From Candidatus Bathyarchaeota archaeon (lineage in GTDB: Archaea; Thermoproteota; Bathyarchaeia; Bathyarchaeales; Bathycorpusculaceae), in the NCBI GenBank assembly GCA_017883615.1, contig JADGNF010000045.1:1-59052 (forward strand): 59,052 nt of DNA, in the 5' to 3' direction. Each line of letters opens with the position of its first letter. Within the stretch, counting starts at the first letter, position 1. The position numbers and the translations under genes are program-made. Under the pieces are notes generated by a model, which saw nothing but the letters and a program-made list of their open reading frames with translations, had not been told where the DNA came from and did no database searches. This document shows positions 5,554 to 6,856 of this stretch, piece after piece.

Positions 5554-5590
5554 TACCTAACCTAGATTCGGCTCTTTCTTTCCCGAAGAT

Positions 5591-5598
5591 TTTAATAT
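5591..5598 (+). promoter_or_regulatory. Candidate TATA box of the queT-queC operon
   Basis: TTTAATAT lies 94 bases before the queT start. The predicted transcript start is around 5617-5622, which coincides with the beginning of the G/C-rich hairpin in the leader, so nearly the whole leader would be structured RNA. Confidence 0.5.
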
Positions 5599-5615: not shown

Positions 5616-5684
5616 TGGTGTCGGCGGGTAAGTGGGCCTCCACCCGTTCCGCCGCAAAATAAACCCCGGGTTGGAGGAGAAAAA
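5616..5684 (+). promoter_or_regulatory. Structured 5' leader of queT-queC; candidate riboswitch with Shine-Dalgarno masking
   Basis: Two mutually exclusive folds can be drawn. In one, CGGCGG (5622-5627) pairs with CCGCCG (5649-5654), enclosing GTGG/CCAC (5632-5635 with 5640-5643) or CGGGT/ACCCG (5625-5629 with 5642-5646). In the other, CCTCCACCCG (5637-5646) pairs with CGGGTTGGAGG (5667-5677): ten base pairs with one bulged T that cover the Shine-Dalgarno sequence GGAGGAG (5673-5679), five bases before the GTG start at 5685. This is the layout of a translational switch. The ligand would logically be preQ0 or preQ1 given the two genes downstream, but that is inference. The leader does not resemble the bacterial preQ1-I consensus as I know it. 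Confidence 0.5.
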
Positions 5685-6203
5685 GTGAAAATACAAACTA
5701 AAGACTTAGCTCTAATCACAATTTATGCTGCACTCTATGCAGCGCTTGTCGTTGTTCTCGGAGCATTATCTTATGGACCAATTAACATCCGCATTGCCGA
5801 TGCATTGCTCTCTGTTGTGCCTTTAGTCGGCTTCGCCGGCGTCTTAGGGCACACGTTAGGTGTATTTGTCGCCAACATCTTCTCATCAGTGGGCGTAGTT
5901 GACTTGCTCAACACGATTCCATCGTTTGCCATGTCGTTTCTAGTTTACTATCTTTACAAGCGCACGAAAAACGACTACGCGGTTCTTGCGTCCAGCATCG
6001 CGTACTCTCTTGTGTTAGGCACAACCGTAGGTTGGATGTTATCCTCAGTTTACAATATGCCGCTTGTGCCAACCATAGCTTGGGTAATCGTAGGGAACTT
6101 AATTGTGACCACACTCATAGGGTGGCCAATGTTCAAGCTCCTGAAAAGGACAGGTGTTTTTCAAAAATGGTTGCCAAATGAAAACCAGGTGACCAAAACA
6201 TGA
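5685..6203 (+). CDS. queT: QueT-family deazapurine (queuosine precursor) ECF transporter S component, 172 aa
   Basis: The protein is a five- to six-helix membrane protein. After the first helix comes YGPINIRIADALLSVVPLVG, the signature of the QueT family, then a GHTLGVFVANIF stretch. QueT proteins act as substrate-binding S components of energy-coupling factor transporters and are thought to import preQ0/preQ1 or related bases. The start is GTG 5685, five bases after the strong site GGAGGAG. The stop codon overlaps the queC start (ATGA at 6200-6203), implying translational coupling. No ECF ATPase or T component is nearby, so it probably uses shared ones. Confidence 0.85.
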   Translation: MKIQTKDLALITIYAALYAALVVVLGALSYGPINIRIADALLSVVPLVGFAGVLGHTLGVFVANIFSSVGVVDLLNTIPSFAMSFLVYYLYKRTKNDYAVLASSIAYSLVLGTTVGWMLSSVYNMPLVPTIAWVIVGNLIVTTLIGWPMFKLLKRTGVFQKWLPNENQVTKT

Positions 6204-6856
6204 ACCAAACCAAGAATTGTGTGGTAGTTCTCAGTGGCGGACCAGACTCAACTGTAGTTGCTTACTGGGCAAGAAAACAAGGATACGCCATCAACTGCCT
6301 TAGCTTCAAATATGGGCAAATCGCCGAAAAAGAAACCCAGCAAGCCGCCCTCATCGCAGGCAAATTGGACGCACCAATCAAAATTATCGACATGAGCAGC
6401 TTATGTGAAATCTTCAAAGGCGTCACAAGCTTGTGCGACCGTAACATAGCTTTAACCTCGCAGTTTAGTGCACCCATTGTGGTGCCTTTTCGAAACGCTA
6501 TTTTCCTTTCGGTTGCGGTTTCCTATGCTGCAGGTATCGGCGCAACCCACATCTTCTATGGTGCCCACGGTTCCGATGCTGCAAACTACCCTGACTGCCG
6601 ACCCGACTTCTATAAGTCGCTTGAGGAAACAGCGTGGCTGGGAACCGAAAAAACCATCCAGATCCAAGCCCCCTTCTGCGGGATCAGCAAAGCTGAGTTG
6701 TTGACGGTGGGCGCAAATCTAGGCGTTCCCTTCGAGCTAACGTGGAGTTGCTATCTCGACGGCGAAAAGCACTGTGGCAAATGCGAATCTTGTGTTAACC
6801 GCAAAGCCGCCTTCAAAGAATCCTGGGTTGCTGATCCGACTGAGTACGAAGAGTAG
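6200..6856 (+). CDS. queC: 7-cyano-7-deazaguanine (preQ0) synthase QueC, 218 aa
   Basis: QueC converts 7-carboxy-7-deazaguanine to preQ0 using ATP and ammonia. In archaea preQ0 is the base inserted at position 15 of tRNA and then made into archaeosine. The PP-loop SGGPDST is at residues 12-18, and four zinc-binding cysteines are at about 184, 192, 195 and 198 (HCGKCESC). Length matches the family. The gene overlaps queT by four bases, so uptake and synthesis of the same intermediate are made together, under control of the shared leader. The enzymes QueD, QueE, FolE and ArcTGT are not in this window. Confidence 0.95.
   Translation: MNQTKNCVVVLSGGPDSTVVAYWARKQGYAINCLSFKYGQIAEKETQQAALIAGKLDAPIKIIDMSSLCEIFKGVTSLCDRNIALTSQFSAPIVVPFRNAIFLSVAVSYAAGIGATHIFYGAHGSDAANYPDCRPDFYKSLEETAWLGTEKTIQIQAPFCGISKAELLTVGANLGVPFELTWSCYLDGEKHCGKCESCVNRKAAFKESWVADPTEYEE

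Follow-up and report, generated by a model that had tools for sequence, protein, structure and literature searches.

The closest described counterparts of the RNA considered here are the bacterial preQ1 riboswitches. In the pseudoknot of preQ1-II (RF01054), which is found in queT leaders, the Shine-Dalgarno sequence is fully hidden by pairing with an anti-Shine-Dalgarno strand, which gives translational control (PMC11625349). preQ1-I (RF00522) is an H-type pseudoknot ordered P1-L1-P2-L3, with an A-rich L3 and the Shine-Dalgarno sequence in P2; preQ1-III (RF02680) has its expression platform far from the pocket; and both preQ1-II and preQ1-I type III are described as hiding the Shine-Dalgarno sequence when stabilised by ligand (PMC11625349). 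A 2024 review of preQ1 riboswitches makes no mention of archaea (PMC11625349). In the open-licence PubMed Central literature that we searched (a subscription paper or a preprint could be missed) no archaeal preQ0, preQ1 or archaeosine riboswitch is named, nor is there one in Rfam, in agreement with a sequence-only reading of this DNA that knew of no well-described archaeal example. To our knowledge, few riboswitches have been described in archaea at all.

That reading had proposed, for the window (the whole stretch of 59,052 nucleotides analysed), a switch in the leader of two genes related to preQ0, containing a CGGCGG/CCGCCG hairpin, a Shine-Dalgarno GGAGGAG, and a TATA box that places the transcript start at the hairpin. 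All of these are present, and the two genes are indeed QueT (by PF06177) and QueC (by TIGR00364, above its cut-off). The features of the locus are as follows.

5590-5597, + strand: TATA box TTTTAATA, which puts the transcript start a few bases upstream of P1, from the sequence and from an A+T peak upstream of P1 in 100 leaders.
5619-5681, + strand: conserved pseudoknotted RNA element, the whole match to covariance model R1 (E 7.3e-17; model R2, E 3.5e-15).
5622-5627, + strand: P1 5' strand CGGCGG, partner 5649-5654, by covariation in alignments A3 and A6.
5628-5636, + strand: L1 loop strand, GUAAGUGGG here and GUGAGUGGG in most relatives, by sequence conservation.
5632-5635 (in L1) with 5640-5643, + strand: GUGG and CCAC of a competing apical hairpin, 96.8% paired.
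5637-5641, + strand: P2 5' strand, the anti-Shine-Dalgarno CCUCC, partner GGAGG 5673-5677, by covariation with the Shine-Dalgarno strand.
5644-5648, + strand: conserved CCGUU; a possible P3 joins its CCG (5644-5646) to CGG 5667-5669 (99% of cells paired, nearly invariant).
5649-5654, + strand: P1 3' strand CCGCCG, by covariation.
5655-5672, + strand: L3, an A-rich stretch and then CCCCGGGUU; AAA.CCCGG is nearly invariant (columns 62-64 and 66-70 of A6, conserved 94-100%).
5673-5679, + strand: Shine-Dalgarno GGAGGAG, whose GGAGG is the P2 3' strand, from the sequence and covariation with the P1 loop.
5685-6203, + strand: queT, GTG start at 5685, for the S-component of an ECF-type 7-deazaguanine base transporter (PF06177, E 8.3e-23).
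6200-6856, + strand: queC, 7-cyano-7-deazaguanine (preQ0) synthase, overlapping queT by 4 bases (TIGR00364, 189.8 bits against a cut-off of 150.3; PF06508, E 6e-62).

We consider that this leader is probably a translational riboswitch of queT(-queC) that would act by sequestering the Shine-Dalgarno sequence, with preQ0 as its most likely ligand. The consensus of the element, about 63 nt long, is GGCGGGUGAGUGG..CCUCC.ACCCGUUCCGCC..AUAAACCCCGG.GUA.GGAGG.

Folding the leader by itself is uninformative. Its folding energy is ordinary (z +0.64; 146 of 200 shuffles equal or better it), and since shuffled sequence folds equally well, only comparison can decide whether there is a leader RNA. From the comparison, the RNA is predicted to be an H-type pseudoknot, in which the CCUCC loop of hairpin P1 pairs with the Shine-Dalgarno sequence as P2. 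The first reading had treated two helices, the P1 stem and a ten-pair helix covering the Shine-Dalgarno sequence, as simple alternatives, which they are not: the stem and the loop/Shine-Dalgarno pairing can coexist as a pseudoknot. The ten pairs can form, between CCUCCA.CCCG (5637-5646) and CGGG.UUGGAGG (5667-5677, with U5671 bulged), and five of them, CCUCC/GGAGG (five to seven in relatives), are conserved, as is the inner CCG/CGG; A5642-U5672 and C5643-G5670 are not, their alignment columns 77 and 71 varying freely. We therefore reject the full helix, whose outer pairs are not conserved.

How strong is the comparative signal? Alignment A6 has 100 distinct sequences and was fitted to P1 only; the pairs counted in it are six plus two in P1, seven in P2 (P1 loop and Shine-Dalgarno region), and a short P3 (CCG/CGG). 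We observe that 93.8% of 1714 cells are paired, with changes on both sides at 11 of the 18 pairs (136 such cells), that none of 500 shuffles reaches any of the five measures used, and that sliding the alignment by one column cuts pairing to about 52%. An 81-sequence alignment without P3 gives the same answer. Against a tree-simulated null, and within the proposed pairs, the best of P1 are 5-46 (p 4.6e-5) and 9-42 (p 1.1e-4), and those of P2 are 28-81 (p 6.8e-4) and 31-80 (p 1.1e-3); when all 1953 column pairs are subjected to the tree-simulated test, no structural pair falls at E < 0.05 (the best is 0.09). Part of the signal at the two best P2 pairs comes from a concerted insertion of one pair, from CCUCC/GGAGG to CCUCCC/GGGAGG. 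Independent double changes are visible in both helices. The top of P1 changes from G-C to C-G in nine sequences and P1 of L170 has a G-C to A-U double change; a GGCGC..GCGCC variant of P1 also occurs; and further exchanges give UUUCCG/CGGAAA in L104, GCUCCG/CGGAGC in L229 and UACCUCC/GGAGGUA in L151. Loops paired with their own tails give helices of 6.27, against 5.67 for swapped ones (sd 0.08; maximum of 300 swaps 5.97). P3 has 99% of its cells paired and a single double change (L174), and because it is almost invariant we take it as only suggested. The core of P2 is also constrained by its role in ribosome binding. Covariation and conservation in homologous leaders had been set beforehand as the test that could refute the switch, and the result came out strongly in its favour: on the computed evidence the RNA is conserved, P1 and P2 are paired, and the partner of the P1 loop is the Shine-Dalgarno sequence. 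As in riboswitches generally, we have here a conserved, covarying leader RNA whose structure includes an expression signal. The unpaired positions of L1 and L3 are 94-100% conserved over many families, as would be expected of a ligand pocket.

A second state is plausible. The apical GUGG/CCAC hairpin inside P1, with a few double changes, takes up bases of a strand that P2 needs, so that it and P2 cannot form together; it is this hairpin, rather than the ten-pair helix, that plausibly competes with the pseudoknot, and it would free the Shine-Dalgarno sequence. The hairpin is lost in several sequences (L003, L048, L177, L180) while P2 persists. Separately, in L104 (627-684) the P2 3' strand is CGGAAA, not an obvious Shine-Dalgarno sequence, and masking of the classical kind may not be how control works in this variant.

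Promoter signals place the transcript start at P1. Across 100 leaders, A+T content is highest between -35 and -27 from P1, and in 51 of them, versus 18 expected, the best TATA-like octamer falls within -40 to -28 of P1; the usual archaeal spacing from TATA box to start puts the transcript start within a few bases of P1. The placement first suggested for this one leader holds across the set.

Compared with the bacterial classes, the element resembles preQ1-II in lying in a queT leader and in pairing a hairpin loop with the Shine-Dalgarno sequence. preQ1-II differs in being restricted to Bacillota, with an HLout fold of P1-P4 and an unrelated consensus, whereas the archaeal element occurs in Thermoproteota with near-invariant GUGAGUGG and AAACCCCGG. 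The likeness to preQ1-I is one of topology only, not of membership: P1 and P2 covary, and A60 and A62-A64 of A6 are 98-100% conserved. preQ1-I is about half the size, bacterial, senses preQ1, and has a conserved C before the P1 3' strand; in the archaeal element P1 and P2 are longer, there is an additional CCGUU strand, and L3 contains CCCCGG. With preQ1-III it shares a preQ1-family pseudoknot tied to genes for queuosine precursors. The covariance models RF01054, RF00522 and RF02680 give no match, either at gathering score or on the leader at E up to 10, and Rfam 15 contains no family for this element; permissive-threshold matches (mir-320 and hya, for example) are chance only. As it matches no preQ1 class model, we propose that the element works like preQ1-II or preQ1-I type III without belonging to either. 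We lean, by a little, towards an archaea-specific riboswitch class of Bathyarchaeia and related Thermoproteota, tuned to preQ0 and not preQ1 and independent of preQ1-I, -II and -III.

The element is widespread. The queT leaders of Bathyarchaeota records (L002, L031, L032, L034, L035, L038 and others) share one common block of sequence and structure. Of 91 genomes of the family, 58 have a strict P1-hairpin pattern, almost all of them in a single copy, and none has a reversed control pattern. Model R1, built from 44 sequences, matches 184 of 257 Bathyarchaeia genomes (97 among the 120 of high quality) and is found in 81 of 109 genera, with the reservation that covariance-model E-values are rough and the genomes mostly metagenome-assembled. 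In Bathyarchaeia the element stands before queT, nearly always one copy per genome. Twenty sampled genomes of other classes of the phylum (Thermoproteota) also match; one of these (G355) is likely a false positive because its QueT sits on another contig, and we rejected the match (L109), which has no P2-capable tail and no ORF after it. About 110 QueT-bearing genomes of the sampled phylum have no match, and 19 of 20 inspected queT leaders, from genomes picked mostly for lacking one, show no convincing trace of the element. Viral contigs have no full element and three partial chance matches. The queT leaders of two genomes, G551 and G566 (L225:126-240 and L226:129-250), have a different, well-conserved G+C-rich element of more than 100 nt, which matches nothing in Rfam and may be a small RNA gene or a further regulatory RNA.

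The association with genes of one metabolite pathway is another general property of riboswitches, and here it is near-exclusive. Among 62 elements scanned, the first gene downstream is QueT in 56, QueC in 2 and an unassigned S-component-like protein in 3; for the remaining one (L122) the frame that was read is not the right one. The element stands ahead of queC in G002 and G006, where queT lies further downstream. The S-component-like protein is polytopic, of about 230 residues, and has no Pfam match. It takes QueT's place in G120, G122 and G535, which have the element and no PF06177 match, and within one family it stands behind the element in additional genomes; in G535 a QueC-like gene comes after it. 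Profile comparison with QueT gives 86% probability, and a low-confidence structure model has as its best matches the ECF S-components RibU and FolT, none significant by E-value. This Pfam-less family (alignment A8), a candidate new 7-deazaguanine transporter distantly like QueT, includes the following members, among others.

L128, 5264-5950, - strand: polytopic protein of the family.
L114, 667-1383, + strand: polytopic protein of the family.
L233, 566-1267, + strand: polytopic protein of the family.

Which 7-deazaguanine would the RNA sense? We surveyed the pathway in 41 genomes, that of the window and those of 40 relatives. Of these, 39 encode tRNA-guanine transglycosylase (PF01702, for the most part of archaeal length), 5 encode QueD and none encodes QueF, so most of these organisms probably salvage an archaeosine precursor, and preQ1 is not made. 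True QueC (E < 1e-30) is present in 14 genomes, always sharing a contig with QueT; QueD is missing from 11 of the 14. In the window (5685-6856) and 13 relatives QueC lies beside QueT, mostly without QueD, an arrangement that suggests import of 7-carboxy-7-deazaguanine (CDG, the QueC substrate) or a similar base followed by QueC, a truncated preQ0 pathway. preQ0 is the substrate of the archaeal transglycosylase. It is also what QueC makes, and no other intermediate is shared by all the arrangements; hence it is our preferred ligand, with CDG second. The original idea of a preQ0/preQ1 or archaeosine-linked switch thus stands as to the conserved, covarying RNA and its near-exclusive gene association, and is weakened as to preQ1, given the absence of QueF from all 41 genomes. 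In G001, apart from the queT locus, a short tRNA-guanine transglycosylase of bacterial length clusters with QueD and a second QueC (contig C4:314149-317789), which could be a deazapurine DNA-modification island.

The mechanism that we infer, with its ligand, its switching and the direction of its response, is as follows. Because transcription starts at P1, the mRNA would begin with the putative aptamer. A plentiful 7-deazaguanine, most likely preQ0, would occupy a pocket made up of L1 (GUGAGUGG), L3 (AUAAACCCCGG) and the CCGUU strand, and would stabilise the H-type pseudoknot with CCUCC on GGAGG, so that with the Shine-Dalgarno sequence masked, translation of the importer and of the preQ0 synthase would be off. 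When preQ0 is scarce, the loop would fold on itself (GUGG/CCAC), the Shine-Dalgarno sequence would be free, and QueT and QueC would be made.

The same pseudoknot could respond to another 7-deazaguanine, that is, CDG, archaeosine base or preQ1, a possibility that we regard as real but clearly secondary. The 11 of 14 genomes with QueC beside QueT and without QueD suggest that QueT there imports a QueC substrate such as CDG; but CDG would be useless to most element-bearing relatives, which are without QueC, whereas preQ0 is needed by all. A characterised bacterial QueT is reported as a preQ1 carrier (PMC11625349), but preQ1 is the compound that genomes with no QueF do not make. It is rather unlikely that the RNA is read by a protein, such as the archaeal transglycosylase, nearly universal in these genomes, or another RNA-binding regulator. 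A fold that masks the Shine-Dalgarno sequence and has conserved single-stranded residues would serve such a reader equally well, but the architecture, a compact H-type pseudoknot with an A-rich L3 and the Shine-Dalgarno sequence in P2, is that of small-molecule riboswitches. L7Ae in particular would need a k-turn, which we looked for and rejected: there are no tandem GA pairs, and no GA on the CCGUU side opposite GUGA. Still less likely is an RNA thermometer or a constitutive translational damper that masks the Shine-Dalgarno sequence without ligand. Pairing of that region in P2 in nearly all lineages would agree with it, but a thermometer is not expected to keep unpaired L1 and L3 positions at 94-100% over many families, and the near-exclusive link to 7-deazaguanine genes speaks against both. 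Chance complementarity in one leader with no function, for which the ordinary folding energy (z +0.64) could be cited, is refuted by conservation and covariation.

A preQ0-responsive switch of the kind proposed would mean that metabolites control translation through RNA in an abundant archaeal lineage that is largely uncultured, and the element would be a testable preQ0 sensor present in most Bathyarchaeia. The findings also point to a candidate new family of transporters, and they suggest that auxotrophy for preQ0/CDG, with salvage, is widespread.
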